From Cladopsammia gracilis (Eukaryota > Cnidaria > Anthozoa > Scleractinia > Dendrophylliidae): a stretch of 64,000 nucleotides of DNA. Within the stretch, counting starts at the first letter, position 1, and each line of letters opens with the position of its first letter. A program made the position numbers and the translations under genes. The DNA lies in NCBI GenBank assembly GCA_022457155.1, contig JAJGOT010000707.1, positions 186,001-250,000 of the forward strand. The letters are read 5' to 3'. The notes beneath the pieces were generated by a model. That model made no database searches. It was not told the origin of the DNA and was given only the letters and a program-made list of their open reading frames with translations. Of this stretch, positions 14,007-51,687 are shown piece after piece.

Positions 14007-14752
14007 AGTAGTATACAGAATAGGGGTTCTGCGTCCGGTGGATCATGTGGATCATGTGGATCATGTGGATTCGTGTGGATCTGCATAATAAGAGATGTAA
14101 TATTTAAAAGTGACGTCATTGCGGTAGGCAAAAGGGTTATAGGGCCTGTTCAAACTTGTCTGAGTCAGTAAAGTATGACGTGATGGTTATAAATACGGTA
14201 GTTTTGTATGCGTGTTTGCTTTCTTCTATTGTTTTGTTATGTGTTTTGTATTGTCAGCAAAATAATGGTATTATAGAATTGTATTATGAAAGCGGGTCTG
14301 TACATTAAAAAGTTGTAGGTTCATTGTCTCTTTTATCAACAACTTTGACATCCTAATAAATCTTTTCTCATTTTCTCTAGTAAGTGATTGGCTTAAAAGG
14401 GGTTTTTGATCGATTTCATGTTATAAGTTTAACGAGGTCCATTCGATTCCTTATTTGTGATGTGTTAATCTCAGTAGATGTATTGACTGAAATAAATATA
14501 TGCGTATCTTCCTTCTGTACATAACACCGATGGGAGCGCTCTGTTATGGTCCAAATGCAAATGCAGAACATTGTTTCAAGGTTTGTAGTTTAGATTACCA
14601 CATAACGAAAAAACACCCAGACAGTTATCATTTCAACTTGTATTTATTTAATATGTTCATCAACGTTCCAAAGGTAGTTAAAAGGTAAGTTAACAAATCT
14701 AAAGTTCCGAGTGATATTTACATACAGCTACAAACATTTTTTTTCAAAGGAC
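14007..14752. repeat. Left terminal inverted repeat of B
   Basis: Nearly identical to the complement of 26379-27117. The tip has three GGATCATGT-type tandem repeats. Homology to the other arm continues inward into the polymerase gene, so the effective inverted repeat is much longer than the non-coding part. Confidence 0.85.
14500..14688 (+). CDS. Conserved 62-residue ORF in arm (B left)
   Basis: A small open frame with ALCYGPNAN, HCFKVCSLDY and HPDSYHFNLYLF segments. Related versions are kept open in all four arms of B and C (also 26445-26633, 43133-43321, 50952-51140), with amino-acid changes but no stops. The homologous part of A is broken. It points inward and converges on the polymerase stop 65 bp away. 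The coding sequence ends exactly at AAAAGGTAAGT, a consensus splice donor, so it may be a first exon rather than a complete gene. I recognise no domain. Confidence 0.45.
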   Translation: MRIFLLYITPMGALCYGPNANAEHCFKVCSLDYHITKKHPDSYHFNLYLFNMFINVPKVVKR

Positions 14753-17700
14753 TCAACAAGCATTGATTTTATAATGTCCATACGCCAGTGTTTGGCGTCC
14801 ATTACTTAGAATGTGTCGTTTGTCATCGTAAGGTGAAAGGCTTGTCTTCGTCAAAGTTACAGAATAGATCTGATGGTTCTCGCTCCTAATTTGATTCATC
14901 TGTGCCATCTGTGGACGTTTGTCAAATAGGCAGCTCTTATAATCCTGGTGGCGAATTTTCATCTTTGTAGTATTCTTGGAGATGCCCTTTGCTGTTTTCT
15001 TTTCCACTATCTGTTGTCTTCAGTGAACAGGACGGAGTACATTTTGGGTCGAAGACCGATAAACTCAATTATTGGCAAGCCGTGAGTTTCGTCCTTCATT
15101 TTACCTAGGGCTTTCTTGTTTTGCGTACTGTACAGAAAATGGTCAGGTGGATACTCTGACGTGTCAAAATAATCCAGATCTTGAAGGAAATCCCGGTACA
15201 GATCATCTGTGTTCACATCATAACACAGACTGTCGGTATCAGTAAAAAGAAGTTTACATTTAGCTCCATACTTTGAAACCATATAGTTGTAGTGAAAGTC
15301 ATACATGAGCACTTTCGACAAATCAAGTATGGTAAAACCAACGTAAATAGGGCGATTCAGGTACAACTTTGTCTTTCTCATGTTAACAGTGACCAGGTCT
15401 TCAGAGAAGATGCGGAAAGAATCAAAGGCAGGTGATGCGGTGAGCTTAGTGAGTTTCTCTGGCTTTGTCAGCAGCTTGACATTCACACGCTTTCGCAGGT
15501 TTTCCATAGCCTTCCCAAAGACAGAATTGTTCATGAGTTTAAAGAAGTCTTTCTCAAAATCATTCGCTGCCATTTTACGTTTTGCTGTGTTGAAGTCAAT
15601 GTAACTCTTCAGCCAAGTGCTTTGTGCCAAGCCTAATACTCTGTGAATCTTTGTCAACTTCATGCCAAGGTCTAGGTATAGTTTTAGGTTGCGGTAGTGG
15701 AGAATGTAACGATTTTTGTTAAAACGATTCGGCACTGACTTTGGGACCGCTGTGCCGCCCAGCTTTAGGTCTTCATTGAGTTGTTGACAGTAAGGAGACA
15801 GTACGTTGGAAGTGACCCTCATTTTCTCAGGTGCTAGTGGATAATCTGAATGGAGGTCGTGAAGCTCTGGTGGGTACTCTAAATCTACATCAAGAATGTA
15901 ACCCTCCTCGCAGTCATCAACCACCCTCTGCACATCTAAATCATCGATTTCTTTTTCTGAAAGCCAGAAAAAATCATGAGTCGGGAGAGGTTGACTCATG
16001 GCCCAACCATACAAGTTGTGGGCGTCTAGGTACATGATATAGTTTTTATCTTGAGTTGAGTCATAGCCAGGGGCATATGGCTTATTTGCTTTGCTGTAGC
16101 GATTGCTAATCATGGAAATACCGCCACGAATGCCCCCCTCTAGGAAAAGGTAGATATCAGGCTCGGTTATAAGTTCAAGTGCTACTTCGGTCATCTTGAG
16201 TCAGGCGGACCAGGCTAGACCAGGAGAAGTGTAGTAATGAGCGGGGTCCAGTCCATAGTAATTCAAACAGATGCTTCGGGAGTTTTCGAAAACATCGGCC
16301 AATAAAAGCACATCTGAGAGAAGGTAAAGATCGTGGTAGTCGCAAAGATTTTGCATTTGAAAGGTCGTAAACACATTTTGCGCCTGCTGATAATCTTGGT
16401 CGCTAATGTGCTCTTCCGTTAGCCGGCTGAAGAATGCTTTTTTGGGAGGAAGCTGTCGTTCTTGAAATTTGTGCATATCATCCATATAATCGTACGGGTA
16501 AACACCTTTTCTCAACAACAGAGGCACTTTGTTTTCTTCAATGTAGCGCTTGAGAACGTGAATTTTACCATCTCCTTCCTGAGACAAGTTACACACAAGT
16601 TTCTCTAATGACGCGTTCATAAACTGATATGAATCAATGAAATCCAGGTGACCAATCGAGAAGGAAATGTACTTTTCCGTGTTGTTCGGGATGCAGTTAA
16701 GGGGTTTGTTCTTAAACTTCTCAGCGCCTTGCATGATGAGATGAGAGTCATACCCCATGAGATTATGAAAAATGACTGGTATTCTACCAGTAAATTGAAA
16801 GTTTAAGTTGCAAGAATTATGAGCCCCCCCCCCTCTAAATCTGCCAGTGAGATGACAGCGATCACGCTTTCTATCGGCTCCAAGTTCCTCTCTACAGATA
16901 TGACAATGAGTGGCGCGTCGAAACTGCTGTTCCTCAGTAGGTGTCAGTTGCATGGGAACAATCTGTCTTAAGATGGCCTGAATTCTCTCCTCCTCTTGTT
17001 GTATAGACTCAAGAAACTTGTTCACAGCATCTTCGCCTCGGTAGACTACAGGAGGTTTGCAGTAGTCAAGCCTCTCGGAGACTATGACATAAGAGAACCC
17101 ACATGCTTGGTGGTTCTGGAACTTTTCGGTCGATGATTTGCTGGGATCGGGCGAGACAGTGTGTATCGTGGTGGTCAAGCTCTCAAAATCTGCAAAAATC
17201 ACAAAGAGGACCCGGCGCTGCTTAGGGAAATCTTTAAACTGGAGAAACATGTTGTCGCCGCTTGGTAGTTCTATTCTCTGAGGCCCATGTTGACTGCAAA
17301 GAAGCTTGTGATCTTCTAAAAGTAGCTCTCGCACTAAACCGTGAAGACAGTGAGGGCAGTAAAACATTTGACCTTCATATCGCGTTTGACTTGAAAGAAG
17401 TCGGTTGAGGTTTCGGATCAGGCAGTAATGGCGTTTCTCACCCAGAGAATAGAGCATTAAGTTGACGTGAACAGGATAGCGTTCCTTGCTTATGAAAACA
17501 GGAAATAATGCACCTTGCTCAAATCCAAACACGTTAACAGCTATCTGGTTTTGCTTTTCAAATGTTGGAATTTTACTAACAGGCACCGGAAATTCTATAC
17601 CTTCAAAGTTCAGTTCCTTTAATTTACATGTGCTTGGTAATGGTGAATCCGTGCAGCGTAAGATCTCCGTGGAATTGGATGTAAAGCTGCCAGCACGCTC

Positions 17701-18608
17701 CACATGAAACACTTGTTGTCACCATTCTTGATATTAACAATCGCCTTTTTGTTGTTTAATTTCTTTGGCAGAGGGGGGTAGCTCGCTCCATTCAGAGGCT
17801 TGTACTGGGCTATATTTAAATCTAGATGCAGTATTTCTAAGAGCATCCAGCCACTTCCTTCTTTTTGATAAGTCGCAAAGGCGATTAAAATCTTCTGGTT
17901 GGCGTCGTTAAGCTGTTCTTCTATCTCATGTGCGTTGACTGTCGTCATGCATAAACTCGAAAATGCGGTTCTGCGACCAGATCGGAACCATCTGCTTTTG
18001 GTTTCACGAACTTCACTTGAACGCTGACAAACCACTTTATTCCTTTCTTAGCAGCAAGTTCTTGTTTCAAACGACGAAGGAGCGGCTTCTTCTTGCTATG
18101 TAGAAACAGCCTTAGATCGTTTTTCTCTTGAATACGAGGTTTTAACTTGAAGGTCTTCAAAGTACACATAAACGCTGAAGTGAAATCGCAATGATCTTCT
18201 GTGCTGTCGTCTTGCACATCTTCATTTGTGGCTTGTGAGGGCAAACTGTGCTCCACCTTGTCATCCAGTTTCATTTCTTTACTTGCTGGAGCGTCGCTAT
18301 CCACCTCTATGGTACTAAGTTTTCGTTTCATGCCATTATCAAAGGTTGGCCGTTTCTCGACCTCGCATAGCTTTTGGTGTTCTAAGCACATATCTTGACG
18401 ATGAAACTTGAGACTACAATGCTGACATTGGTGTGTCTTGTCTTGAGAATGTTTCTTCATGTGCCGCTATAAAGCATCTTTTCGATTGAAGGAATCACCA
18501 CACCGCTCACAATGAAAAGAACTGCCACCGTGAACTGCTTTCTTATGTCGTGCCAGGTTAGTTTCCTGAGAAAACTGCTTCTCGCAAATATCACATATGA
18601 AAGCCATT
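14753..18608 (-). pseudogene. POLB: Zinc-finger DNA polymerase B, left copy in B, broken
   Basis: Inverted copy of the intact polymerase at 47038-50886. It starts at 18606-18608 and ends at 14753-14755. Visible domains are the N-terminal C2H2 fingers, the GDNKCFMWSVL block, exonuclease FADFESLT, the Cys-rich CHICREELG block, palm YLDAHNLYGWAM, fingers LMNNSVFGKAMEN and catalytic FTDTDSL. Damage: a nonsense change in the second finger (TAG at about 18474-18476), frameshifts near 17950 and 17640, and a TGA at 16201-16203 replacing a Cys codon. One extra Gly codon arises from a G run near 16840. It lies in the left arm of B, mirrored by the plus-strand copy at 20403-26378. Confidence 0.85.
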
Positions 18609-18794
18609 CTATACTCTTAACAATCGCTGTCCGCTTACTTTTTGATCTACACTCTTCGAAATCTTGCTTTGAAATAAATAGAGGTTATATTGAAGTTAAA
18701 TTTATTTACGTCCTAAACAATACCATTGTGAAATCCTTCTCCCCATTGGTTAACAAGAAAACCTATTATGACTTCACTTGGGCAAGTCTAGGCA

Positions 18795-19032
18795 TGTTTA
18801 GAGTAAACGGGTGTGTCGTGATTGTCCAATTCCGGGATGTGAAGCAAAATACCTCGTGAAATTATCTAATCATCTCACTGATGTGCATCAACTGGATCAT
18901 ATTCAGCGAAGAACGTACCTACAAGAGGCCAAACAACAACCCAAGGTTAAAGTGGTTATCGTGACACGGAGAACAGCAAAGACTCGAGAGTATGTTCCAC
19001 AAGTAACCATGTTAACCATGTTCATTTTGTAG
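18795..19032 (+). pseudogene. Small zinc-finger gene, first copy in B, broken
   Basis: Reads CRDCPIPGC then KYLVKLSNHL and VHQLDH, the same zinc finger as at 19610-19999 and 46326-46715. The natural ATG at about 18795 is out of frame with the finger by a 1-nt indel, and the C-terminal half is lost after REYVPQ. It lies divergently upstream of the minus-strand polymerase, the same arrangement as in element C. The non-coding gap 19033-19609 holds AT-rich sequence, a short TTCATTGTG tandem near 19347-19383 and the TTGGC cluster. Confidence 0.6.
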
Positions 19033-19471
19033 GATAATTATAATCTAATGTTTTTAACAGTATGAAAATACAAACGAGTAGTTCAATTCCCCCTTGAGAA
19101 AAATAAATCGCAATTAAAAAGAGTAGTTTAAACTCGTGTCATTTCGCAGAGCACTTGCAAGGTTTCGCTACGTAAAAGATTGTTAGGCTTTATTTTCTCA
19201 TTCGATACAAACATAGTGTACTTTCCTTACATTTCCTGAAACGTTTTCCCAGCATCTCAGCCACGCTCAAAATTAATTGATATAACAAAAGTTATCTTTT
19301 AGAGCGACTCTTTATTAAGTTTACACGTTGCTCAAACAATTTCAGTTCATTGTGTTCATTGTGTTTTTGTGTTCATTGTGTTGAGAAACAGGAAAGGTTC
19401 GTTAAATCTCGAAATAATGACTAAAACCCTTTACATGAAACTGTCAGCAGAATATGGCGCTTTTGACGGTT

Positions 19472-19545
19472 TTGGCGTATTTGGCCTGGCTTTGGCTTTA
19501 TTGGCCTATCTTTGGCTTTCTTGGCCTGGTTTTGGCCTGTTTGAT
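19472..19545. promoter_or_regulatory. Cluster of seven TTGGC half-sites
   Basis: Seven TTGGC motifs, mostly as TTTGGCCTGG or TTTGGCTTT, occur within about 70 bp just upstream of the zinc-finger start. Element C has four at 46785-46835 in the same relative place. TTGGC is the half-site of NFI-type factors. A role in transcription or replication is inference. Confidence 0.4.
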
Positions 19546-19609
19546 CATCAATATATACAGAAAAATTGTTACACAAATGTCATTTGTGTCTTGTCGTCTA
19601 ACTGTAAAC

Positions 19610-19999
19610 ATGGTCTACAAAAGAGTTTGTAGAGATTGTCCGATTCAAGGATGCGGTGCAAAGTACCTCGTAAGACTAGCTAACCATCTTGCACATGTTC
19701 ATCAGTTGGATCACACGCAACGGAGAAAGTACCTTCAAGAGGCCAAACTACAACTAAAAGTTAAAGTAATTATCTACCACAACACGGAGAACAACCGCAA
19801 AGACTCGGGAGAATGTTCCACAAGCGAAGCACTGCCATCAACTGAACAAGAAGAACAACGCACTGTTTGCCATGTATCTTCACCCAGAGAACCAAAAGCT
19901 TTACCACAGTTTAAAGCAAGCGGTGTTAGAAAAACAACAACAACTATTAAACGCCGTCAAAGGACAAAACATTTACCTTCTCAATGGATCACTTTATAA
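19610..19999 (+). CDS. Small zinc-finger protein of element B
   Basis: About 129 residues. The N-terminus has a Cys/His zinc-binding unit (VCRDCPIQGCGAKYL followed by NHLAHVHQLDH); the rest is charged, Ser/Glu-rich and ends in a basic KRRQRTKH tail. The start is ATG 19610, chosen because it aligns with the start in C and the upstream open frame is low-complexity. The orthologue in C (46326-46715) is about 90 percent identical by eye. In C it is divergently transcribed from polymerase, so it may be a DNA-binding accessory or regulator; that is inference. The region 20000-20402 downstream holds a displaced copy of a polymerase C-terminal end-like segment (20057-20213) and no other gene. Confidence 0.6.
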   Translation: MVYKRVCRDCPIQGCGAKYLVRLANHLAHVHQLDHTQRRKYLQEAKLQLKVKVIIYHNTENNRKDSGECSTSEALPSTEQEEQRTVCHVSSPREPKALPQFKASGVRKTTTTIKRRQRTKHLPSQWITL

Positions 20000-20056
20000 C
20001 CTATTAATGTCAGCAGCGCAATAAACTTAAATCTGTAAAGCCATTTACACCACCAC

Positions 20057-20213
20057 AGATGGCACGGATGAACCAAATTAGAAGCAAGAATCATCAACTC
20101 TATTCTATGACTCTGACCAAAACAAGTCTATCTCCCTATGACGACAAACGCTATATTTTACAAAACGGATGTGAGACACTGGCTTATGGACATTATAAGA
20201 TCAACGCTTGTTA
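20057..20213 (+). pseudogene. Displaced polymerase C-terminal fragment
   Basis: Reads QMARMNQIRSKNHQLYS then a segment ending LAYGHYKINAC, homologous to the last ~50 residues of the element polymerase but not attached to one. A counterpart, inverted, is at about 46108-46275 in element C. The shared position in B and C shows it belongs to the family's ancestral layout. Confidence 0.55.
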
Positions 20214-20615
20214 ACGCTTGTTTGTCAATGAAATAATTGTGTTGTAGAATTATATTGTATTGTAGAGTTGGGTAGATATATGCTCTCGTTTTTATACTGT
20301 TCGCTGTCTATTCTTTGTAAGAACTTAATCTTAATAAAACATTGTTTCTCTCTCTCTCTAGAGGACGATTGGTTAAAAGCGGTTTTCGCACCATTCAATT
20401 CTATGTTTCTCCAGTTTAAAGATTTCCATAAGCAGCTCCGGGTCCCCTTTGTGATTTATGCGGATTTTGAGAGCTTGACCACCACGATACACACTGTCTC
20501 ACCCGATTCCAGCAAATCATCGACCGAAAAGTTCCAGAACCACCAAGCATGTGGGTTCTCTTATGCCATAGTCTCCGAGAGGCTTGACTACTGCAAACCT
20601 CCTGTAGTCTACCTA

Positions 20616-23600
20616 CAATGGAGGACAAAAGTAGCTGGGACACCTGTGAAAAGTTAACAAATAATAATGTAATACTGCTACAGTTATCTTTGTGGCCGCA
20701 ATTTGAGCGTATCCCCCCCCCCCCCCCTTTCCCCCCCAAACCAATGTTGACCAAAGTAAGTGAATATTTTTTCGGCGTAAATGTCCGTTCGATCATTAAA
20801 TCTCAACATTGCAAGGGGGGTGGAGGGGGGGATTATTTGACTAGTTTTTTGGTAAGTGTCCCAACACTAATGACCTCCATTGTCTGAATGTGTCTGTCTG
20901 TTGAAATTGCTCATTTATGCTAGAAACTAACCAAATATTGCGTGTGTAGTGAAGCTGTAATAGGTTAACTGTGTATGAGGGTGTTTGGCATTAGAATGAA
21001 ATGTGTGACATAACCAAAAATTGGGGGGAGGGGTGGGTAAGTTATATGTAACTCATATTGCGACGGACCAGGTCTTGGTTTGATAAAATGCCATCGTTCT
21101 TTAGTTTTTCAACGCACTATTTGATGTCTCTATGAGCGTAAATTCACGCTTCCATTGAAAGAGTTTTGTTTTCTATGAACGAGAATGAAATATTTTAGCT
21201 TACAGGATATTTGAAACCGGAGTTAAAGTCGCGCACGTGATGCGTCATCATTATTGAGTAATGACAACACTACTCGGCAACAATACTCACCAACATTGTT
21301 TGCTTTTTCTCGCTGTAGCACCGAAAGATTGCTAACGAAAGTAGTTTAAATGTTTCAACCTTGTTAGAAGAATTGTTTACTGAGGTAGTCTGTATCAGTA
21401 GTGCACGTTTTATTCGATTTTCCACAATACTCGGCATATTAGCGTTAAAGTAAACAACAAATCAAATACTTCTCTTCTTGGTTATCAGTGAGTAATGTTG
21501 ATAAAATAAGAAAATTCCACAACTTTTCGAGAAATTTAAATGTAACTACATTGAATAAACTATTTCTCATATATCGCTATAGAAAAATTCAGTAAACGCG
21601 CGTATTTTCCGTTGTTATGCTTGAAAATTGGTGTGAGTAATGTGGTGAGTAATGTGGTGAGTAATGTAAGTATTGTTGACACGGCACTTCCGGTTGTAAT
21701 AAAAATGCGTATTTTTTCAACATTAAGATGTATTTTTCTTTGAAAAGGTACTGCTAGTGCAAAAATACACTTCTTTCATCATACAGGCAGTTTTTTTTTA
21801 GATCAGTAATACGATCAGTTTCATATTTGCGCTTCTTATGTCCCAAAAACAAACTATACAAAGTTAACGGAATGCGATCATTGTATTTTGAATTTAAAAA
21901 CACCCAAAAATTGTGCTTTATATGACCCAAAACTAAAGTCATAACGTTCATTTATCACTTTCCGCACCTACTACCACCACCGGCTCTCTAATCATGCTGC
22001 TAAAGGCTTTTTTTCAAGCGACAAACCTGTTTTTTTTTTCCAAAAATCTGTTTGAGACAATGGAGGACAAAAGTAGCTGGGACACCTGTGAAAAGTTAAC
22101 AAATAATAATGTAATACTGCTACAGTTATCTTTGTGGCCGCAATTTGAGCGTATCCCCCCCCTTTCCCCCCCAAACCAATGTTGACCAAAGTAAGTGAAT
22201 ATTTTTTCGGCGTAAATGTCCGTTCGATCATTAAATCTCAACATTGCAAGGGGGGTGGAGGGGGGGATTATTTGACTAGTTTTTTGGTAAGTGTCCCAAC
22301 ACTAATGACCTCCATTGTCTGAATGTGTCTGTCTGTTGAAATTGCTCATTTATGCTAGAAACTAACCAAATATTGCGTGTGTAGTGAAGCTGTAATAGGT
22401 TAACTGTGTATGAGGGTGTTTGGCATTAGAATGAAATGTGTGACATAACCAAAAATTGGGGGGAGGGGTGGGTAAGTTATATGTAACTCATATTGCGACG
22501 GACCAGGTCTTGGTTTGATAAAATGCCATCGTTCTTTAGTTTTTCAACGCACTATTTGATGTCTCTATGAGCGTAAATTCACGCTTCCATTGAAAGAGTT
22601 TTGTTTTCTATGAACGAGAATGAAATATTTTAGCTTACAGGATATTTGAAACCGGAGTTAAAGTCGCGCACGTGATGCGTCATCATTATTGAGTAATGAC
22701 AACACTACTCGGCAACAATACTCACCAACATTGTTTGCTTTTTCTCGCTGTAGCACCGAAAGATTGCTAACGAAAGTAGTTTAAATGTTTCAACCTTGTT
22801 AGAAGAATTGTTTACTGAGGTAGTCTGTATCAGTAGTGCACGTTTTATTCGATTTTCCACAATACTCGGCATATTAGCGTTAAAGTAAACAACAAATCAA
22901 ATACTTCTCTTCTTGGTTATCAGTGAGTAATGTTGATAAAATAAGAAAATTCCACAACTTTTCGAGAAATTTAAATGTAACTACATTGAATAAACTATTT
23001 CTCATATATCGCTATAGAAAAATTCAGTAAACGCGCGTATTTTCCGTTGTTATGCTTGAAAATTGGTGTGAGTAATGTGGTGAGTAATGTGGTGAGTAAT
23101 GTAAGTATTGTTGACACGGCACTTCCGGTTGTAATAAAAATGCGTATTTTTTCAACATTAAGATGTATTTTTCTTTGAAAAGGTACTGCTAGTGCAAAAA
23201 TACACTTCTTTCATCATACAGGCAGTTTTTTTTTTAGATCAGTAATACGATCAGTTTCATATTTGCGCTTCTTATGTCCCAAAAACAAACTATACAAAGT
23301 TAACGGAATGCGATCATTGTATTTTGAATTTAAAAACACCCAAAAATTGTGCTTTATATGACCCAAAACTAAAGTCATAACGTTCATTTATCACTTTCCG
23401 CACCTACTACCACCACCGGCTCTCTAATCATGCTGCTAAAGGCTTTTTTTCAAGCGACAAACCTGTTTTTTTTTTCAAAAAATCTGTTTGAGACAATGGA
23501 GGACAAAAGTAGCTGGGACACCTGTGAAAAGTTAACAAATAATAATGTAATACTGCTACAGTTATCTTTGTGGCCGCAATTTGAGCGTATCCCCCCCTTT

Positions 23601-23755
23601 CCCCCCCAAACCAATGTTGACCAAAGTAAGTGAATATTTTTTCGGCGTAAATGTCCGTTCAATCATTAAATCTCAACATTGCAAGGGGGGTGGAGGGGGG
23701 GGGGATTATTTGACTAGTTTTTTGGTAACTGTCCCAACACTAATGACCTCCATTG
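20616..23755. mobile_element. TA-flanked tandem transposon array M'-S'-M'-S'-M'
   Basis: Three copies of a ~265-bp module (20616-20882, 22058-22324, 23494-23755) alternate with two ~1.17-kb spacers. Each module starts CAATGGAGG and ends CCTCCATTG, with a C-run/G-run core around CAATGTTGA and TCAACATTG. The whole array is bounded by TA (20614-20615, 23756-23757). Inner junctions are not TA: spacers start TCTGAATG and end TTTGAGA. Repeat period is 1442 and 1436 bp. Spacers hold GTGAGTAATGT repeats and no supported gene. It sits inside the right polymerase copy of B. Confidence 0.8.
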
Positions 23756-25894: not shown

Positions 25895-26116
25895 TTCAAA
25901 CAATTTTCCGTTTTTTACCAAGGACCCAAATTTTACAACTCCTTATCTAATGAGATCGTGAACTCGTCCTCCCCTGCCTCCTTTAAAAAAGCAATTAAGA
26001 CGTTTATTTGTAATAAATATTAGTAATCTTATATAAATGTGTCAAAATGTATCCGTCGTCATATTCTTATTTTGTTAATGTCATCTTACAAAACTAAAGC
26101 TGAGGAGGCCTAATTA

Positions 26117-26161
<45 letters not shown>

Positions 26162-27941: not shown

Positions 27942-27957
27942 CGTGTATATTTGGGTT

Positions 27958-41228: not shown

Positions 41229-41274
41229 GATTGTATATATATATTTTTAAAAATGTATTATATAAACCAGTACA
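41229..41274. promoter_or_regulatory. 46-bp bidirectional promoter
   Basis: The gap between two divergent ATGs contains TATATATATATT near the minus-strand gene and TATTATATAAACC near the plus-strand gene. Both starts are within about 15 bp of their TATA-like box. Confidence 0.5.
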
Positions 41275-41943: not shown

Positions 41944-41962
41944 AAAATCTTCGTGATGTGTA

Positions 41963-42626
41963 ATGAGTTCGGCTAACGTACTACCTCCATCTGCTCCGGA
42001 ATACAGCGAGACTGAACCGCTCTACCAAGTCGTCTTACCAAATGGCGATGATTTTCGTCTTAAGAAAATCTCTGACTTACAAAAAGAGCTTAAATCAGAA
42101 GCTGGCCACTATAGACAGGTCGCAAAAAAATACAAACGAACCCACTCCATTGTTCGCGGTTCGGCTGTTGGCCTTGGTTTTATTTCTGCTGGCTTATCTT
42201 CTGCCACCTTGGCCACAGCACTGACTGGTTTTGGAACTGGCTAGCATCGCTGCTATTTCAAGGTTTTCATCCGCTGGCCTTACTGCATTCAGTAAACGGC
42301 TCGAAAGAAAGTTCACGAAAAATGAAAAGATCTACACGCTCGCCCTTACTAAACGAAACTCTGTCAGCGGGTTAGTTTCTAAAGCTCTCAAAGACAAGGC
42401 CATTTCAGATGGCGAGTGTTTTATTATACTTCACGAAGTAGAGAGATATCACGAGCTCAAAGCCGACATTCAATCTGGTGTTGGCAAAACTCAACCACAA
42501 GACAGTCAAACTCGAGCGCCTGATATAGACAAGATCAAATGCGAGCTTCGCAAAGAAATCAAACAAGAATTTCAAAAAAAGATCAATCGTCTCACAGCTG
42601 CGTCCAAGTCAGATTTGAAAGATTAA
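41963..42626 (+). pseudogene. Membrane and coiled-coil protein of outer element, frameshifted
   Basis: Starts MSSANVLPPSAPEYSETEP, a Pro-rich head. A charged segment (LKKISDLQKELKSEAGHY) and a Gly/Ala-rich hydrophobic region (SAVGLGFISAGLSSATLATA) follow. At 42230-42244 the frame shifts by one base; the second frame continues with more hydrophobic residues, then ALTKRNSVSGLVSKALKDK and a coiled-coil tail (CELRKEIKQEFQKKINRL). Total about 220 residues. A virion membrane protein is plausible. Element C begins 24 bp downstream. Confidence 0.5.
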
Positions 42627-43132
42627 ACTCAGGGTTTAATCTCTATTGCTAGTAGTATACAGAATAGCGGTTCTGCAACCGGTGGATCATGTGGATCATG
42701 TGGATCAAGCGGGTCCGCATATACAAAGCAATTTAAGCGGGAAAATGACATCATCGTGGTAAACAATAGGGTTAGAAGGCCTGTTTAAGCTTGCCCAGTC
42801 AGTAAAGTATGACGTGATGGTTATAAATGCGGTAGTTTTGTATGAGTGTTTGCTTTCTTCTAATGTTTTTGTGTTTTGTATTGTCAGCAAAATAATTGTT
42901 TGATAGAATTGTATTATGAAAGCGGGTCTGTACAGATTAAAAAATTTGTAGGTTCATTGTCTCTTCTATCAACAACTTTGACATCCTAATAAATCGTTTC
43001 TAATTTTCTCTAGTAAGTGATTGGTTTAAAAGGGGTTTTTGATCGATTTCATGTTATAAGTTTAAGGAGGGCCATTCGATTCCTAATTTGTGATGTGTTA
43101 ATCTCAGTAGATGTATTGACTGAAATAAATAT

Positions 43133-43321
43133 ATGCGTATCTACCTTCTGTACATAACACTCATGGGAGCGCTCTGTTATGGTCCACATGCAAATGTAGA
43201 ACACTGTTTCAAGGTTTGTAGTTTAGATTACCGCATAACGAAAGAACACCCAGACAGTTATCATTTCAACTTGTATTTATTTGATATGTTCATCAACGTT
43301 CCAAAGGTAGTTAAAAGGTAA
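43133..43321 (+). CDS. Conserved 62-residue ORF in arm (C left)
   Basis: Same small frame as in B with several substitutions (for example ALCYGPHANVEHC, RITKEHPDSYH). It ends AAAAGGTAAGT again. Function unknown; see 14500-14688. Confidence 0.45.
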   Translation: MRIYLLYITLMGALCYGPHANVEHCFKVCSLDYRITKEHPDSYHFNLYLFDMFINVPKVVKR

Positions 43322-43386
43322 GTCAACAAATCTAAAGTTCCGAGTGATATTTACATACAGCTACACAGATTTTTTTTTCAAAGGAC

Positions 43387-44667
43387 TCAACAAGCATTGA
43401 TTTTATAATGTCCATACGCCAGTGTTCGGCGTCCATTACTTAGAATGTGTCGTTTATCATCGTAAGGTGAAAGGCTTGTCTTCGTCAAAGTTACAGAATA
43501 GATCTGATGGTTCTCGCTCCTAATTTGATTCATCTGTGCCATCTGTGGACGTTTATCAAATAGGCAGCTCTTATAATCCTGGTGGCGAATTTTCCTCTTT
43601 GTAGTATTCTTGGAGATACCCTTTGCTGTTTTCTTTTCCACTGGTTTGTTGTCTTCAGTGAACAGGATGGAGTACATTTTGGGTCGAAGACCGATAAACT
43701 CAATTATTGGCAAGCCGTGAGTTTCGTCCTTCATTTTACCTAGGGCTTTCTTGTTTTGCGTACTGTACAGAAAATGGTCAGGTGGGTACTCTGACGTGTC
43801 AAAACAATCCAGATCTTGAAGGAAATCCCGGTACAGATCATCTGTGTTCACATCATAACACAGACTGTCGGTATCAGTAAAAAGAAGTTTACATTTAGCT
43901 CCATACTTTGAAACCATATAGTTGTAATGAAAGTCATACATGAGCACTTTCGACAAATCAAGTATGGTAAAACCAACGTAAATAGGGCGATTCAGGTACA
44001 ACTTTGTCTTCTTCATGTTAACAGCGACCAGGTCTTCGGAGAAGATGCGGAAAGAATCAAAGGCAGGTGATGTGGTGAGCTTGTTGAGTTTCTCTGGCTT
44101 TGTCAGCAGCTTGACATTCACACGCTTTTGTAGGTTTTCCATAGTCTTACCAAAGACAGCATTGTTCATGAGTTTAAAGAAGTCTTTCTCAAAATCATTC
44201 GCTGCCATTTTACGTTTTGCTGTGTTGAAGTCAATGTAACTCTTCAGCCAAGTGCTTTGTGAAAAGCCTAATACTCTGTGAATCTTTGTCAACTTCATGC
44301 CAAGGTCTAGGTATAGTTTCAGGTTGCGGTAGTGGAGAATGTAACGATTTTTGTTGAAAAGATTCGGCACTAACTTTGGGACCGCTGCGCCGCCCAACTT
44401 TAGGTCTTCATTGAGTTGTTGACAGTAAGGAGACAGTAAGTTGGAAGTGACCCTCATTTTCTCAGGTGCTAGCGGATAATCTGAATGGAGGTCGTGAAGC
44501 TCTGGTGGGTACTCTAAATCTACATCAAGAATGTAACCCTCCTCGCAGTCATCAGCCACCTTCTGCACATCTAAATCTTCGATTTCTTTTTCTGAAAGCC
44601 AGAAAAAATCATGAGTCGGGAGAGGTTGACTCATGGCCCAACCATACAAGTTGTTGGCGTCTAGGTA
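43387..44667 (-). pseudogene. POLB: Inverted 3' part of polymerase B in left arm of C
   Basis: About 427 codons identical or nearly so to the C-terminal third of the complete gene: palm YLDANNLYGWAM, fingers LMNNAVFGKTMEN and catalytic FTDTDSLCYDV, ending YGHYKINAC. No stop or frameshift. The frame begins abruptly at the edge of a 144-bp MITE (44669-44812), so the rest was lost or never present. It has no start of its own. It is the part of the arm where the inverted repeat enters coding sequence. Confidence 0.8.
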
Positions 44668-44668
44668 C

Positions 44669-44812
44669 TGACTAGGGCACAAAAGTTAGTTTCTGCAAAA
44701 CACCAAAAATTAAGTTACTGAAACGACAAACAAATGAAATTGGAGTCATTCAGCGCGAATTAGACCGACCCCTTGGTTAGTTTTGCAGAAACTAACTTTT
44801 GTGCCCTAGTCA
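44669..44812. mobile_element. 144-bp hairpin MITE
   Basis: Perfect ~33-bp inverted ends beginning TGACTAGGGCACAAAAG. It sits at the exact end of the inverted homology between the arms of C. Immediate flanks are ambiguous because ACTGACTAGG extends the palindrome on both sides. Confidence 0.75.
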
Positions 44813-44814
44813 GT

Positions 44815-46325
44815 GTGGCTGACTTCATTCTCTGGCAATGGATCGATCAGCAATAACAACGGAACCATTTCATGCATTATCACCTGAGTTATCAGTGGCA
44901 TTTTCTTAACGAAAGAGACGTTTATTTAGTAAATGGGCACCAACACGATTTTACATTACGTTAATTACTAAATAATGGTCAGTTTGTATATAGTTTCGAC
45001 AGCGGAGCCGAACGTTTTTAAGGAGAAAATGTTGCGGGAATATATGTTAGAAAAATTAGAACCCGCAAAAATTTAGTGCGAACGGTAATACGGACCACCA
45101 AAGCATATATTTTTACACAAACATTACGTAATGTCTTATTACAATCTCATATTTTCAGCAGTATGTAAATACAAATGAATAGTTCAATTACCCTTGAGAC
45201 AGCTTAATTGTAATTAAAAAGAGTATTTTGAACTCGTGTCTTTTCTCTTTAGCACGCGAATAGCGCTGTGCATCCAAACAATACTTGACTTCAAGAAAAA
45301 GCATTGTTAATTCGTTCCTAAACTGTTATCGCTATTTGAACGTTCATTCGTCACGCTTTAAACTATCGCAGGCCAGTTACTTTTCTTTCGAGTAAAGTTG
45401 TTAAATTTAATACAAATTAATGTTTGGACATGCAACTTTGCTTTGGTTATCTGGTTACTTTCTTATAAATAAATATGGTCAAGGATTTCCGAAAACAGCC
45501 TCGAATCCAACAAGTTAATTTATTGGATGATAAACGTTAAAGTGCGAACTCGGCTTCACTGATTGATATCGCCGAACGTTATAAGTATTTCAAGAAAGAA
45601 GACGATCGGTTCCATCGTTAAGTTTGGTTTTCTTACCATTTGACTGTGCTGTGCGTGGATTTGAATGGTTGTAAATAGAACCGCTTTTGTTGACATGACG
45701 ATTTGATATAACTTTGACGAGGTTTGTTAAAATTAAACGTGTGGCTTTGTTGTCTTAGCACGGCTGCTTTGTTTTTTTGACAGAGGTGCTAATTTTCCAT
45801 GCAAATTTATAGTTCAGTGTTCGCATAATTAAAAGTTTGAACTTTGAAGCTACCGGAAAGTCAAAGTGATAAATAAGAGTAGACTTAACCTACTGAAATC
45901 ATCGATTAAAATACACCACAATTTATGGATCGAATGGCCTTCATAAAACTACCAATTCATAGAATTGAATGGTGCGAAAACCGCTTTTAACCAATCGTCT
46001 TCTAGAGAGAGAGAAACACTGTTTTATTAAGATTAAGTTTTACAAAGAATAGAAGCGAACACTATAAAGACGAGAGCATATATCTACCCAACTCTGCAAT
46101 ACAAACAAGCGTTAACAAGCGTTGATCTTATAATGTCCATAAGCCAGTGTCTTACATCCGTTTTGTAAAATATAGCGTTTGTCGTCATAGGGAGATAGAC
46201 TTGTTTTGGTCAAGTCGTAGAATAGAATTGATGATTCTTGCTTCTAATTTGGTTCATCCGTGCCATCTGTGGTGGTGTAAATGGTTTTACAGATTTAAGT
46301 TTATTGTGCTCCTGACATTAATAGG
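44815..46325. other. Non-coding interior of element C
   Basis: AT-rich. About 45150-45260 matches B near 19060-19160. About 45770-45865 matches an internal arm segment of A (near 4190-4250). About 45900-46100 matches, inverted, B at 20270-20420. A displaced polymerase C-terminal fragment lies near 46108-46275 on the minus strand. These shared blocks link A, B and C to one ancestor. No gene is supported. Confidence 0.55.
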
Positions 46326-46715
46326 TTATAAAGTGAGCCATTGAGGAGGTAAATGTTTTGTCCTTTGACGGCGTTTAATAGTTTTTGTTGTTTTTCTAAC
46401 ACCGCTTGCTTTAAACTGCGGTAAAGCTTTTGGTTCTCTGGGTGTCGATACATGACAAACAGTGCGTTGTTCTTCTTGTTCAGTCGATGGCAGTGCTTCG
46501 CTTGTGGAACATTCTCCCGAGTCTTTGCGGTTGTTCTCCGTGTTGTGGTAGATAATTACTTTAACTTTTGGTTGTAGTTTGGTCTCTTGAAGGTACTTTC
46601 TCCGTTGCGCGTGATCCAACTGATGAACATCTGCAAGATGGTCAGCTAGTCTTAAGAGGTACTTTGCACCGCATCCTTGAATCGGACAATCTCTACAAAC
46701 TCTTTTGTGGACCAT
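46326..46715 (-). CDS. Small zinc-finger protein of element C
   Basis: About 129 residues from ATG 46713-46715. The zinc unit is VCRDCPIQGCGAKYL, then DHLADVHQLDH. A Ser/Glu-rich middle follows (NNRKDSGECSTSEALPS) and a basic C-terminus (KRRQRTKHLPP). It is the orthologue of 19610-19999. It is transcribed away from the polymerase start at 47038. The 320-bp gap contains four GCCAA motifs and a CCAAT. It is intact, like the polymerase beside it. A sequence-specific regulator or replication accessory is the natural guess; I cannot name a family beyond zinc finger. Confidence 0.65.
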   Translation of the reverse strand: MVHKRVCRDCPIQGCGAKYLLRLADHLADVHQLDHAQRRKYLQETKLQPKVKVIIYHNTENNRKDSGECSTSEALPSTEQEEQRTVCHVSTPREPKALPQFKASGVRKTTKTIKRRQRTKHLPPQWLTL

Positions 46716-46784
46716 GTTTACAGTTAGACGACAAGACACAAATGACATTTGTGTAACAATTTTTCTGTATACATTGATGATCAA

Positions 46785-46835
46785 ACAGGCCAAAACCAGG
46801 CCAAAAAAGCCAAAGCCAGGCCAAGTACGGCAAAA
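46785..46835. promoter_or_regulatory. GCCAA cluster in divergent promoter
   Basis: Four GCCAA/TTGGC motifs within 50 bp, upstream of the zinc-finger gene. It corresponds to the seven-copy cluster at 19472-19545 in B. Confidence 0.4.
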
Positions 46836-47037
46836 CCGTCAACAGCGCCATATTCTGCTTGCCATAGTGACGTCATAATGGTTTCTTTAACCAACCAATG
46901 AAGAGAGGGATTTCATAATCGCATTGTTTAGGACGCAAATAAATTTGACTCTTGTACAACCATGATTTATTTCGAAACAAGCTTTCGAAGAGTGTGGATC
47001 AAAAACGTAAGTGGACAGCGATTGTTAAGAGTATAGA

Positions 47038-50000
47038 ATGGCTTTCATATGTGATATTTGCAAGAAGCAGTTTTCTCAGGAAACTAACCTGGCACGACAT
47101 AAGAAAGCAGTTCACGGTGGCAGTTCTTTTCATTGTGAGCGGTGTGGTGATTCCTTTAATCGAAAAGATGCTTTAAAGCGGCATATGAAGAAACATTCTC
47201 AAGACAAGACACATCAATGTCAGCATTGCAGTCGCAAGTTTTATCGTCAAGATATGTGCTTAGAACACCAAAAGCTATGCGAGGTCGAGAAACGGCCATC
47301 CTTTGAAAATGGCATGAAACGAAAACTTAGTACCATAGAGGTGGATAGCGACGCTCCAGCAAGTAAAGAAATCAAACTGGATGACAAGGTGGAGCACAGT
47401 GTGCCCTCACAAGCCGCAAATGAAGCTGTGCAAGACGACAACACAGAAGATCATTGCGATTTCATCTCGGCGTTTAAGTGTACTTTGAAGACCTTCAAGT
47501 TAAAACCTCGTATTCAAGAGAAAAACGATCTAAGACTGTTTCTACATAGCAAGAAGAAGCCGCTCCTTCATCGTTTGAAACAAGAACGTGCTGCTAAGAA
47601 AGGAATAAAGTGGTTTGTCAGCGTTCAAGTGAAGTTCGTGAAACCAAAAGCAGATGGTTCCGATCTGGTCGCAGAACCGCATTTTCGGAGTTTATGTATG
47701 ACTACAGTCAACGCACATGAAATAGAAGAACAGCTTAACGACGCTAACCAGAAGATTTTAAGCGCCTTTGCGACTTATCAAAAAGAAGGAAGTGGCTGGA
47801 TGCTCTTAGAAATACTGCATCTAGATTTAAATGTAGCTCAGTACAAGCCTCTGAAAGGATCGAGCTATCTCCCTCTGCCAAAGAAATCAAATAACAAAAA
47901 GGCGATTGTTAATATCAAGAATGGCGACAACAACTGCTTCATGTGGAGCGTGCTGGCAGCTTTACATCCAATTCCACGGAGATCTTACGCTGCACGGATT
48001 CATCATTACCAAGCACACGTAAAGGAACTGAACTTTGAAGGTATAGAATTTCCGGTGCCTGTTAGTAAAATTCCAACATTTGAAAAGCAAAACCAGATAG
48101 CTGTTAACGTGTTTGGATTTGAGCAAGGTGCATTATTTCCTGTTTTCATAAGCAAGGAACGCTATCCTGTTCACGTCAACTTAATGCTCTATTCTCTGGG
48201 TGAGAAACGCCATTACTGCCTGATCCGAAACCTCAACCGACTTCTTTCAAGTCAAACGCGATATGAAGGTCAAATGTTTTACTGCCCTCACTGTCTTCAC
48301 GGTTTAGTGCGAGAGCTACTTTTAGAAGATCACAAGCTTCTTTGCAGTCAACATGGGCCTCAGAGAATAGAACTACCAAGCGGCGAAAACATGTTTCTCC
48401 AGTTTAAAGATTTCCCTAAGCAGCGCCGGGTCCCCTTTGTGATTTTTGCAGATTTTGAGAGCTTGACCACCACGATACACACTGTCTCGCCCGATCCCAG
48501 CAAATCATCGACCGAAAAGTTCCAGAACCACCAAGCATGTGGGTTCTCTTATGTCATAGTCTCCGAGAGGCTTGACTACTGCAAACCTCCTGTAGTCTAC
48601 CGAGGCGAAGATGCTGTGAACAAGTTTCTTGAGTCTATACAACAAGAGGAGGAGAGAATTCAGGCCATCTTAAGACAGATTGTTCCCATGCAACTGACAC
48701 CTACTGAGGAACAGCAGTTTCGACGCGCCACTCATTGTCATATCTGTAGAGAGGAACTTGGAGCCGATAGAAAGCGTGATCGCTGTCATCTCACTGGCAG
48801 ATTTAGAGGGGGGGCTCATAATTCTTGCAACTTAAACTTTCAATTTACTGGTAGAATACCAGTCATTTTTCATAATCTCATGGGGTATGACTCTCATCTC
48901 ATCATGCAAGGCGCTGAGAAGTTTAAGAACAAACCCCTTAACTGCATCCCGAACAACACGGAAAAGTACATTTCCTTCTCGATTGGTCACCTGGATTTCA
49001 TTGATTCATATCAGTTTATGAACGCGTCATTAGAGAAACTTGTGTGTAACTTGTCTCAGGAAGGAGATGGTAAAATTCACGTTCTCAAGCGCTACATTGA
49101 AGAAAACAAAGTGCCTCTGTTGTTGAGAAAAGGTGTTTACCCGTACGATTATATGGATGATATGCACAAATTTCAAGAACGACAGCTTCCTCCCAAAAAA
49201 GCATTCTTCAGCCGGCTAACGGAAGAGCACATTAGCGACCAAGATTATCAGCAGGCGCAAAATGTGTTTACGACCTTTCAAATGCAAAATCTCGGCGACT
49301 ACCACGATCTTTACCTTCTCTCAGATCTGGTTTTATTGGCTGATGTGTTCGAAAACTTCCGAAGCATCTGTTTGAATTACTATGGACTGGACCCCGCTCA
49401 TTACTACACTTCTCCTGGTCTAGCCTGGTCCGCCTGCCTCAAGATGACCGAAGTAGCACTTGAACTTATAACCGAGTCTGATATCTACCTTTTCCTAGAG
49501 GAGGGCATTCGTGGCGGTATTTCCATGATCAGCAATCGCTACAGCAAAGCAAATAACCCATATGCCTCTGGCTATGACTCAACGCAAGATAAGAACTATA
49601 TCATGTACCTAGACGCCAACAACTTGTATGGTTGGGCCATGAGTCAACCTCTCCCGACTCATGATTTTTTCTGGCTTTCAGAAAAAGAAATCGAAGATTT
49701 AGATGTGCAGAAGGTGGCTGATGACTGCGAGGAGGGTTACATTCTTGATGTAGATTTAGAGTACCCACCAGAGCTTCACAACCTCCATTCAGATTATCCG
49801 CTAGCACCTGAGAAAATGAGGGTCACTTCCAACTTACTGTCTCCTTACTGTCAACAACTCAATGAAGACCTAAAGCTGGGTGGCGCAGCGGTCCCAAAGT
49901 TAGTGCCGAATCTTTTCAACAAAAATCGTTACATTCTCCACTACCGCAACCTGAAACTATACCTAGACCTTGGCATGAAGTTGACAAAGATTCACAGAGT

Positions 50001-50886
50001 ATTAGGCTTTTCACAAAGCACTTGGCTGAAGAGTTACATTGACTTCAACACAGCAAAACGTAAAATGGCAGCGAATGATTTTGAGAAAGACTTCTTTAAA
50101 CTCATGAACAATGCTGTCTTTGGTAAGACTATGGAAAACCTACGAAAGCGTGTGAATGTCAAGCTGCTGACAAAGCCAGAGAAACTCAACAAGCTCACCG
50201 CATCACCTGCCTTTGATTCTTTCCGCATCTTCTCCGAAGACCTGGTCGCTGTTAACATGAAGAAGACAAAGTTGTACCTGAATCGCCCTATTTACGTTGG
50301 TTTTACCATACTTGATTTGTCGAAAGTGCTCATGTATGACTTTCATTACAACTATATGGTTTCAAAGTATGGAGCTAAATGTAAACTTCTTTTTACTGAT
50401 ACCGACAGTCTGTGTTATGATGTGAACACAGATGATCTGTACCGGGATTTCCTTCAAGATCTGGATTGTTTTGACACGTCAGAGTACCCACCTGACCATT
50501 TTCTGTACAGTACGCAAAACAAGAAAGCCCTGGGTAAAATGAAGGACGAAACTCACGGCTTGCCAATAATTGAGTTTATCGGTCTTCGACCCAAAATGTA
50601 CTCCATCCTGTTTACTGAAGACAACAAACCAGTGGAAAAGAAAACAGCAAAGGGTATCTCCAAGAATACTACAAAGAGGAAAATTCGCCACCAGGATTAT
50701 AAGAGCTGCCTATTTGATAAACGTCCACAGATGGCACAGATGAATCAAATTAGGAGCGAGAACCATCAGATCTATTCTGTAACTTTGACGAAGACAAGCC
50801 TTTCACCTTACGATGATAAACGACACATTCTAAGTAATGGACGCCAAACACTGGCGTATGGACATTATAAAATCAATGCTTGTTGA
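47038..50886 (+). CDS. POLB: Zinc-finger protein-primed DNA polymerase B, intact
   Basis: 1282 residues, uninterrupted. The N-terminus has three zinc fingers: C5/C8/H21/H26, C33/C36/H49/H53 and C61/C64/H77/C81 (the last is C2HC). Near residue 300 is GDNNCFMWSVLAALHP, a Cys-containing block also seen, diverged, in the outer polymerase. The exonuclease DxE is D472/E474 (FADFESLT). A four-Cys block C567, C570, C583, C597 (CHIC ... DRCHLTGRFRGG ... CN) resembles an endonuclease VII-type zinc motif. Palm motif A is at D859 (YLDANNLYG), the fingers motif near 1021 (KLMNNAVFGKTMEN) and catalytic DTD at D1121/D1123. This is the DNA_pol_B_2 type that primes from a terminal protein. The start ATG 47038 matches the position in B. 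It should replicate element C and could act on B and A in trans. Confidence 0.9.
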   Translation: MAFICDICKKQFSQETNLARHKKAVHGGSSFHCERCGDSFNRKDALKRHMKKHSQDKTHQCQHCSRKFYRQDMCLEHQKLCEVEKRPSFENGMKRKLSTIEVDSDAPASKEIKLDDKVEHSVPSQAANEAVQDDNTEDHCDFISAFKCTLKTFKLKPRIQEKNDLRLFLHSKKKPLLHRLKQERAAKKGIKWFVSVQVKFVKPKADGSDLVAEPHFRSLCMTTVNAHEIEEQLNDANQKILSAFATYQKEGSGWMLLEILHLDLNVAQYKPLKGSSYLPLPKKSNNKKAIVNIKNGDNNCFMWSVLAALHPIPRRSYAARIHHYQAHVKELNFEGIEFPVPVSKIPTFEKQNQIAVNVFGFEQGALFPVFISKERYPVHVNLMLYSLGEKRHYCLIRNLNRLLSSQTRYEGQMFYCPHCLHGLVRELLLEDHKLLCSQHGPQRIELPSGENMFLQFKDFPKQRRVPFVIFADFESLTTTIHTVSPDPSKSSTEKFQNHQACGFSYVIVSERLDYCKPPVVYRGEDAVNKFLESIQQEEERIQAILRQIVPMQLTPTEEQQFRRATHCHICREELGADRKRDRCHLTGRFRGGAHNSCNLNFQFTGRIPVIFHNLMGYDSHLIMQGAEKFKNKPLNCIPNNTEKYISFSIGHLDFIDSYQFMNASLEKLVCNLSQEGDGKIHVLKRYIEENKVPLLLRKGVYPYDYMDDMHKFQERQLPPKKAFFSRLTEEHISDQDYQQAQNVFTTFQMQNLGDYHDLYLLSDLVLLADVFENFRSICLNYYGLDPAHYYTSPGLAWSACLKMTEVALELITESDIYLFLEEGIRGGISMISNRYSKANNPYASGYDSTQDKNYIMYLDANNLYGWAMSQPLPTHDFFWLSEKEIEDLDVQKVADDCEEGYILDVDLEYPPELHNLHSDYPLAPEKMRVTSNLLSPYCQQLNEDLKLGGAAVPKLVPNLFNKNRYILHYRNLKLYLDLGMKLTKIHRVLGFSQSTWLKSYIDFNTAKRKMAANDFEKDFFKLMNNAVFGKTMENLRKRVNVKLLTKPEKLNKLTASPAFDSFRIFSEDLVAVNMKKTKLYLNRPIYVGFTILDLSKVLMYDFHYNYMVSKYGAKCKLLFTDTDSLCYDVNTDDLYRDFLQDLDCFDTSEYPPDHFLYSTQNKKALGKMKDETHGLPIIEFIGLRPKMYSILFTEDNKPVEKKTAKGISKNTTKRKIRHQDYKSCLFDKRPQMAQMNQIRSENHQIYSVTLTKTSLSPYDDKRHILSNGRQTLAYGHYKINAC

Positions 50887-50951
50887 GTCCTTTGAAAAAA
50901 AAATCTGTGTAGCTGTATGTAAATATCACTCGGAACTTTAGATTTGTTGAC

Positions 50952-51140
50952 TTACCTTTTAACTACCTTTGAAACGTTGATGAACATATCAAATAAATAC
51001 AAGTTGAAATGATAACTGTCTGGGTGTTCTTTCGTTATGCGGTAATCTAAACTACAAACCTTGAAACAGTGTTCTACATTTGCATTTGGACCATAACAGA
51101 GCGCTCCCATGGGTGTTATGTACAGAAGGTAGATACGCAT
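50952..51140 (-). CDS. Conserved 62-residue ORF in arm (C right)
   Basis: Mirror copy of 43133-43321 with a few substitutions (FINVSKVVKR for FINVPKVVKR). Still open and still ending at GTAAGT. Function unknown. Confidence 0.45.
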   Translation of the reverse strand: MRIYLLYITPMGALCYGPNANVEHCFKVCSLDYRITKEHPDSYHFNLYLFDMFINVSKVVKR

Positions 51141-51687
51141 ATATTTATTTCAGTCAATACATCTACTGAGATTAACACATCACAAATTAGGAATCGAATG
51201 GCCCTCCTTAAACTTATAACATGAAATCGATCAAAAACCCCTTTTAAACCAATCACTTACTAGAGAAAATTAGAAACGATTTGTTAGGATGTCAAAGTTG
51301 TTGATAGAAGAGACAATGAACCTACAAATTTTTTAATCTGTACAGACGCGCTTTCATAATACAATTCTATCAAACAATTATTTTGCTGACAATACAAAAC
51401 ACAAAAAACATTAGAAGAAAGCAAACACGCATACAAAACTACCGCATTTATAACCATCACGTCATACTTTACTGACTGGGCAAGCTTAAACAGGCCGTCT
51501 AACCCTATTGTTTACCACGATGATGTCATTTTCCCGCTTAAATTGCTTTATATATGCGGACCCGCTTGATCCACATGATCCACATGATCCACCGGTTGCA
51601 GAACCGCTATTCTGTATACTACTATTGCTTAAGGGCAAAATCCCGTTATTAAACAAGCTGAAAAAATCTAAACAACTGTATATAACA

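Follow-up and report, generated by a model that had tools for sequence, protein, structure and literature searches.

Three related mobile elements, here called A, B and C, lie within a 64,000-nucleotide stretch of the genome of the scleractinian Cladopsammia gracilis (positions 186001-250000 of contig JAJGOT010000707.1; hereafter the window). B and C encode a polymerase of the kind found in Polintons, and we favour, with modest confidence, the interpretation that the elements belong to a replicase-only satellite lineage of Polintons that is inserted by a borrowed Polinton integrase. The term satellite is used here for dependence on a foreign integrase, and perhaps a foreign capsid, not on a foreign polymerase.

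Three elements and their genes

Element A occupies 2998..7236 (4239 bp), element B 14007..27117 (13111 bp) and element C 42651..51623 (8973 bp). A sequence-only reading had proposed that they share tips, subterminal repeats and long inverted arms, and all three features were recovered. The exact tip AGTAGTATACAG is present at both ends of A, both ends of C and the left end of B, while the right end of B reads AGTAGTATACAA. When the window was scanned for AGTAGTATACAG-type tips with up to two mismatches, 9 matches were found against 3.46 expected, a number reached in 0 of 100 shuffles; three of the nine lie away from the ends of A, B and C. The subterminal repeat GGATCATGT has 12 exact copies, every one just inside the six tips. 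Since the count with one mismatch is not significant (18 matches against 12.75 expected, with 11 of 100 shuffles reaching 18), it is the exact clustering inside the tips that carries the point. The inverted arms range from 0.90 to 2.14 kb at 95.9-99.1% identity: 1.33 kb at 97.6% in A (2998-4320 / 5918-7236), 0.90 kb at 97.5% (14007-14901 / 26230-27117) plus 2.14 kb at 95.9% (14898-17038 / 23757-25894) in B, and 2.02 kb at 99.1% in C (42651..44671 and 49601..51623). The 6-bp target duplications that had been assigned to all three are perfect in A (GTTGTC) and C (ATTGCT), but in B (CTCACC/CTCGCC) only five of the six positions match. Each arm of A also contains a tRNA-His-like gene predicted by ARAGORN (3899-3970 on the minus strand and 6268-6339 on the plus strand), and B has a tandem duplication at about 20615-23756.

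The polymerase of C (47029..50886, plus strand) is a 1285-aa open frame without a stop, its first Met at 47038, in which C2H2 zinc fingers fused to the N-terminus are followed by a terminal-protein-like fold, a vOTU-like motif and an exonuclease/PolB region. A second, C-terminal copy lies in the left arm of C (43387..44685, minus strand). In B the polymerase (15007..17718, minus strand) is broken into two open stretches, 15007-16200 and 16201-17718, with a stop between them, and a partial second copy is found in the right arm (24096..25961, plus strand). The proposal that B and C both carry a protein-primed polymerase is therefore correct as to presence, but the B copy is broken by stops; A has none, as had been stated. 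The small zinc-finger gene ascribed to B and C exists as a separate C2H2-like open reading frame (ORF), ORF2, but fingers are also fused to the polymerase itself. ORF2 of C (46326..46838, minus strand, first Met at about 46748) is divergent from the polymerase and encodes about 140 aa, the start of which is C2H2-like by eye and which has no Pfam match; the copy in B lies at 19439..19999 on the plus strand. There are 52 relatives of ORF2 in the protein collection, and the one with a species name is from Oculina patagonica.

Across 19 aligned polymerase sequences Cys303, His395, D475, E477, D621, D1124 and D1126 are invariant, and we take the Cys303/His395 and the D/E columns to be vOTU, exonuclease and polymerase motifs. 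The C2H2 matches to Pfam (E 8e-6 to 2e-4) are below the curated cut-offs. The polymerase shares 44% identity with the polymerase of a full Polinton in this genome, and its best-ranked named relatives are cnidarian (Dendronephthya, Actinostola and Oculina, among the best 120 of 7968 rows). An AlphaFold2 model of residues 133-460 (pLDDT 80.8, pTM 0.61) matched PDB structures that were nearly all Y-family polymerases, over about 130 aligned columns, together with an isolated little-finger domain. Polinton terminal-protein domains have been reported to be related to the Y-family polymerase or little-finger fold (Krupovic et al., PMC11071308). In a viral fold library the N-terminal polymerase model found its best match in a C2H2 protein from Drosophila-associated adintovirus 2 (E 5e-25), and the other matches included a PolB from a MELD virus and PolBs filed under densoviruses. 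The identity to the Polinton polymerase, the Y-family and little-finger matches and the viral PolB matches together place the C polymerase among the protein-primed PolBs with a terminal-protein domain. A viral contig relative sought with the C polymerase was not found; the 19-sequence alignment gave one, L060, at 41% identity, which encodes a polymerase, an RVE-like integrase and ORFs read by eye as capsid genes.

Relatives in the genome and their gene content

The whole genome (877.8 Mb in 1469 contigs) was searched, and the copy counts that follow are lower bounds in which alleles may count twice (the scores of C315 and C317, for example, are identical). There are 37 occurrences of a 26-place tip pattern, compared with 0 of its reversed control. 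At least 40 places are matched by the initial 220 bases of C and at least 41 by the C polymerase, sometimes several per gene; ten of the polymerase places span at least residues 3-1284 without a stop. The polymerases at C315:1338140, C317:1899967 and C283:80724 represent a third group, which shares about 60% identity with that of C; zinc fingers can be made out by eye at the N-terminus (L059), and a stretch resembling ORF2 lies on the downstream side of the gene.

In all nine elements outside the window with C-type tips in which both ends were read, the 6-bp duplication is perfect, so that exactly 6 bp are duplicated in 11 of the 12 elements measured, B being the one with 5/6. The elements thus combine (AGT)2//(ACT)2 ends with 6-bp duplications, which is the published signature of vertebrate Mavericks (PMC8097293). 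A divergent subfamily is represented by C318b, with the tip AGTAGTATATATAATGG and a duplication, CGTAGT, that was assigned by eye and leaves one AGT fewer at the right end. Tip pairs are spaced 2.7-13.1 kb apart in 14 of 16 cases, and the remaining two, at 22.8 and 39.5 kb, hold nested Polintons.

Gene content was compared by tblastn, using 147 ORFs of at least 80 aa from the C408 Polinton, the ends of the C1058 Polinton, L060 and a degraded Polinton in the window (W, described below) as queries against 18 pieces of 11 complete elements. Only six queries matched: two polymerases, each matching 17 of the 18 pieces, three frames that from their coordinates are antisense to one polymerase, and a 59-residue stretch of the W PolB (three pieces, E 1.5e-4). 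With these queries no integrase and no capsid gene was matched in the 11 complete elements, nor was an ATPase or a protease, for which the set holds an ATPase named by eye (L060:6905-7702) and an adenoviral-protease-like ORF below cut-off. This agrees with the sequence-only reading, which had found none of the four in B and C, although the window does hold Polinton integrase sequence, outside the elements and split by B. Within the same query sets the integrase, capsid and maturation genes that mark an adintovirus were not found, and neither were the capsid, integrase, protease and FtsK genes that adintoviruses 1 and 2 are reported to have.

The surroundings of the copies give the same picture. 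None of the 41 polymerase places lies within 20 kb of the places listed for C1058-type integrase (at least 144), C408-type integrase (at least 121) or the presumed capsid protein (at least 69), and none of 113 ORF2 places lies within 15 kb of an integrase, among the matches listed. As a control, 32 of the 69 presumed capsid places have a C408-type integrase no more than 20 kb away. The integrase places are close relatives of two integrases only (82-100% and 95-100% identical), and the capsid identity of the query, L040:3113-5026, is a reading from size and position, no profile having matched. Of 51 tips (the union of the tip-pattern and 220-base lists) three lie within 20 kb of a listed integrase or capsid place, all of them in two nested cases.

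These two cases, C408 (22.8 kb) and C1058 (39.5 kb), were considered as full-length parents with C-type tips and rejected. Both composites have C-type tips and perfect outer duplications, but the Polinton inside C408 has its own tips (AGTAGTTGGG), a 5-bp AAACT duplication and an empty site in the other arm, and that inside C1058 has its own tips (AGTAGTAAGAG), a 6-bp TATAAA duplication and an empty site in C. They are therefore insertions and not autonomous parents. Each encodes an integrase (Pfam rve, that of C408 below the curated cut-off). It is accompanied by YqaJ in C408, and in C1058 by one ORF that is PLA2-like and another with a weak resemblance to an adenoviral protease. The genome search with tips and polymerase that had been suggested as a check thus yielded many copies with 6-bp duplications and, among the matches listed, only these two candidates for a relative with integrase or capsid genes of its own and no element-encoded integrase.

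The main rival to the satellite interpretation is deletion from an unseen full-length parent, which would be a zinc-finger-PolB Polinton or an adintovirus (at a rare locus, in unassembled sequence or as an infecting virus) acting as master, with its selection reflected in the conserved polymerase. We regard this as unlikely, if still a serious contender. A, C92 and the left arm of C look internally deleted, and zinc-finger PolBs occur in several animal phyla, including cnidarian, mollusc and spider proteins among the best 120 of 7968 rows. Since the best viral fold match comes from an adintovirus with a near-complete genome that includes integrase and capsid homologues, it is likely that the element polymerase descends from a full-length element at some time. 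However, no such parent was found among the at least 41 polymerase, 51 tip and at least 113 ORF2 places, among the matches listed.

Palindromic arms and selection on the polymerase

Among the 11 complete elements, five carry two polymerase genes and have long arms (4-7 kb) that are at least 99% identical. C1112 is a palindrome with arms of 5284 bp (99.92% identical) and about 107 bp between them, and C318b one with arms of 6779 bp (99.84%) and 111 bp between. The arms of C419 are 6093 bp (99.0%), those of C439 6077 bp (99.5%), and those of C824 comprise 0.8 kb at 99.0% and 4.1 kb at 99.7%. In all five, polymerase sequence lies in each arm and reads outward, and opposed polymerase pairs are present at ten loci in the genome. 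C has a whole unit on its right side and only 2.0 kb of the unit on its left, and C92 folds back from unit position 3359 to 2184, the two alignments overlapping by 27 bases, which means that hinge positions differ between elements. Since the outer 560 bp of left and right arms are mutually nearest in 11 of 13 elements (98.4-100% identical within an element), the arms appear to be remade from one another. One element, C318a (C318:152449-163251), has ends from two subfamilies yet a perfect 6-bp duplication, GGTATG; it looks like a template switch between two elements, made before insertion if the duplication is original.

ORF2 relatives also form 17 close inverted pairs, about 0.84-1.2 kb apart (C415:17398-18725, C1246:26020-27327, C2:2127344-2128671 and 14 more), with no polymerase beside them among the matches listed for two polymerase queries. 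They may represent a second palindromic family, a further branch.

To measure selection, 14 polymerase frames from ten elements (both arms in four) were compared together with the C408 polymerase. Between the C group and the C318b/C824 group, synonymous divergence (dS) is 0.94-1.20 and the ratio of nonsynonymous to synonymous divergence (dN/dS) 0.08-0.13, while inside the C group the ratio is 0.15-0.59, with its highest values in the interrupted right frame of C419. The two subfamilies are old (dS of about 1) and the polymerase has been under long-term purifying selection. In an IQ-TREE analysis of 32 polymerases, drawn with midpoint rooting, the four C-type polymerases make up a single clade (100/100), next to which stand P0008-P0010 and P0012 (98/92), P0012 coming from Dendronephthya; the C408 Polinton polymerase groups elsewhere, with P0119.

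These values bear on the view that the elements are ordinary non-autonomous Polintons copied wholly in trans, whose passenger polymerase is intact only because the copies are young. This would fit A, and since A has the tips of the family and a perfect duplication despite the lack of a polymerase, copies without the gene do move; the polymerases of B and C285, moreover, carry stops. A dN/dS of about 0.1 at a dS of about 1 and full-length frames in both subfamilies speak against it, unless an unseen parent was the object of selection, and we consider this view improbable. As to the deletion alternative, dN/dS cannot tell whose selection it records, and the low ratio could reflect selection in the unseen parent. 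Inverted polymerase pairs, mostly with ORF2, are nevertheless found on both sides of the split, and neither ORF2 nor the palindromes are explained by simple deletion.

Polintons as hosts, guests and possible helpers

B and C are both inserted in the degraded Polinton W (9755..54734), the inverted ends of which (9754-9981 / 54529-54735, 86% identical over 228 bp) begin AGCAGTATATAG and AGTAGTATATAG. Outside A, B and C, matches to C408 Polinton proteins run through the window in the order PolB, integrase, capsid-like genes, VLTF3-like. The broken W PolB spans 10362..13844 on the plus strand, where 12477-13808 matches other Polinton PolBs at 24-26% and the ORFs at 10362-12510 were assigned by eye. 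A C-terminal piece of the integrase lies at 13840..14001 (minus strand, 81% to residues 276-329 of the C408 integrase) and its remaining pieces at 27119..27941 (minus strand, 83-84% to residues 196-275 and 2-193), so that B sits between two halves of the gene; C sits between later W genes. B and C are therefore younger than W. The homologue of the presumed capsid protein L040:3113-5026 is found at 40255..41309 (residues 1-363) and 31246..31497 (residues 382-465), both on the minus strand, and is split by a tandem array at 31496-40198 (8.7 kb; the unit is 1.69 kb long and present in about 5.2 copies, 98-99% alike), which differs from the tandem duplication in B. On the plus strand follow homologues of L040:4887-5657, presumed by eye to be a minor capsid protein (41179..41940, 61%), and of L040:6851-7636 (52204..53018), where an overlapping ORF (52620-53279) matches Pfam Pox_VLTF3 above cut-off. 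W also contains a 303-aa ORF (28969-29880, plus strand) with only a weak unrelated Pfam match, which by eye resembles the terminal part of a Penelope-like reverse transcriptase carrying a GIY-YIG endonuclease.

Nesting goes both ways, with B and C inside Polinton genes and two Polintons inside C-type elements. Among the flanks at 19 insertion sites (38 flank entries, some of them duplicates, with six sites represented by one flank only), Polinton genes are touched by three elements, B, C and C1032, and the flanks of C439 match a stretch within the Polinton nested at C1058. We claim no enrichment for insertion into Polintons from these sites. The genome does hold many closely similar Polintons, whose integrases fall into two or more types (at least 144 and at least 121 places). 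The C1058 type made a 6-bp duplication (n=1), while the C408 type and W have 5-bp duplications (AAACT and ATACT, n=2), and C408-type Polintons may therefore make 5-bp rather than 6-bp duplications.

Just outside W lies a 494-aa integrase ORF (55369-56850, minus strand; Pfam rve above cut-off, the IS481 model below), possibly from a Ginger- or IS481EU-type transposon. It could be cited for autonomous, linear plasmid-like elements that enter the chromosome through host repair or another integrase family without Polinton help. Cytoplasmic linear plasmids of the pGKL type are likewise small replicons built around a protein-primed PolB fused to a terminal protein (PMC11071308). The elements, in contrast, are represented here by chromosomal copies, with Maverick ends and duplications. 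Their precise ends, 6-bp duplications and AGTAGT motif point to a Polinton-type integrase, and Ginger elements duplicate 4 bp and TDD-4/5 5 bp (PMC2836005), so that we think entry without Polintons very improbable.

From their ends and duplications, the elements would be supplied with a Polinton integrase in trans. We propose that the unit is about 5-7 kb, with a Maverick-type end, the zinc-finger/terminal-protein/vOTU-like/PolB polymerase and usually one small zinc-finger-like protein, and that in the working form two such units in inverted orientation would meet at a central hinge, which would provide the same origin at both ends. The polymerase would use the terminal-protein domain that it carries as primer, starting at the AGT repeats and jumping back, a step that end-motif repeats permit in protein-primed replication (PMC8097293). 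The linear element would then be copied by strand displacement, each arm being remade from the other through fold-back of the displaced strand, and the finished linear copy would be inserted by the integrase of an abundant Polinton that accepts AGTAGT ends.

Several observations count against the satellite interpretation. The helper signals conflict, duplication length favouring the C1058 type and tip similarity favouring W, and since the integrase lists are lower bounds made up of close relatives, a distant cognate integrase would be missed. Integration and a linear free form are proposed from the integrated genomic copies. Two elements depart from the arm rule: the right arm of C285 is without the outer 560-bp stretch, and C318a has a left end that resembles C1112 at 99.8% but a right end that clusters with A and C408. 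Among the 11 complete elements ORF2 is listed in 8, the exceptions being A, C92 and C824. As to the polymerase, the Pfam search of the C protein gave no PolB match, and the PDB fold matches are weak (best E 1.7e-3, none below 0.001, low TM-scores) and do not show which part of the model was aligned. The vOTU-like motif is read from the invariant Cys303/His395 columns, and none of the 50 PDB rows listed is an OTU structure.

The elements would work like a satellite, and without detected integrase and capsid genes they are not Polintons by membership. Virophages and satellite viruses follow the same logic of dependence on a larger helper, but no capsid genes were found in the elements, which probably need the helper's integrase and not its replication or transcription. 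Foldback-type DNA elements have similarly long inverted arms and a short spacer, whereas here the polymerase is self-encoded and the ends are of the Maverick type. With Polintons (Polintoviricetes) the elements share the protein-primed PolB with its terminal-protein-like domain, the (AGT)2//(ACT)2 ends, the inverted termini and the 6-bp duplications, but they have no detected integrase, protease or capsid gene and several are palindromic with two polymerase genes. They are also smaller, with a unit of 5-7 kb, and 13.7 kb for C318b, compared with about 17 kb for vertebrate Mavericks (PMC8097293). Among the titles and abstract openings listed in searches of open-licence papers, none described polymerase-only palindromic relatives of Polintons. 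There is a credible case for a class of their own. More tentatively, and with somewhat less than even confidence, this class could be an old and separate one: a self-priming replicon inserted in chromosomes as a genome-length palindrome, both ends being remade from one template in each cycle. Selection would maintain a replicase of its own, and it would be a parasite of Polintons for integration and possibly also for packaging.

Satellites without replication genes are well known, and to keep replication while shedding integration and packaging reverses the usual dependence. If this is true, Polintons join the list of helpers that have parasites of their own, and since Polintons with 5-bp and 6-bp duplications are both present, which helper moves the satellites is directly testable. 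In the near-perfect palindromes, with arms that have been homogenised, nature has recorded a way in which protein-primed linear DNA may rebuild its ends.

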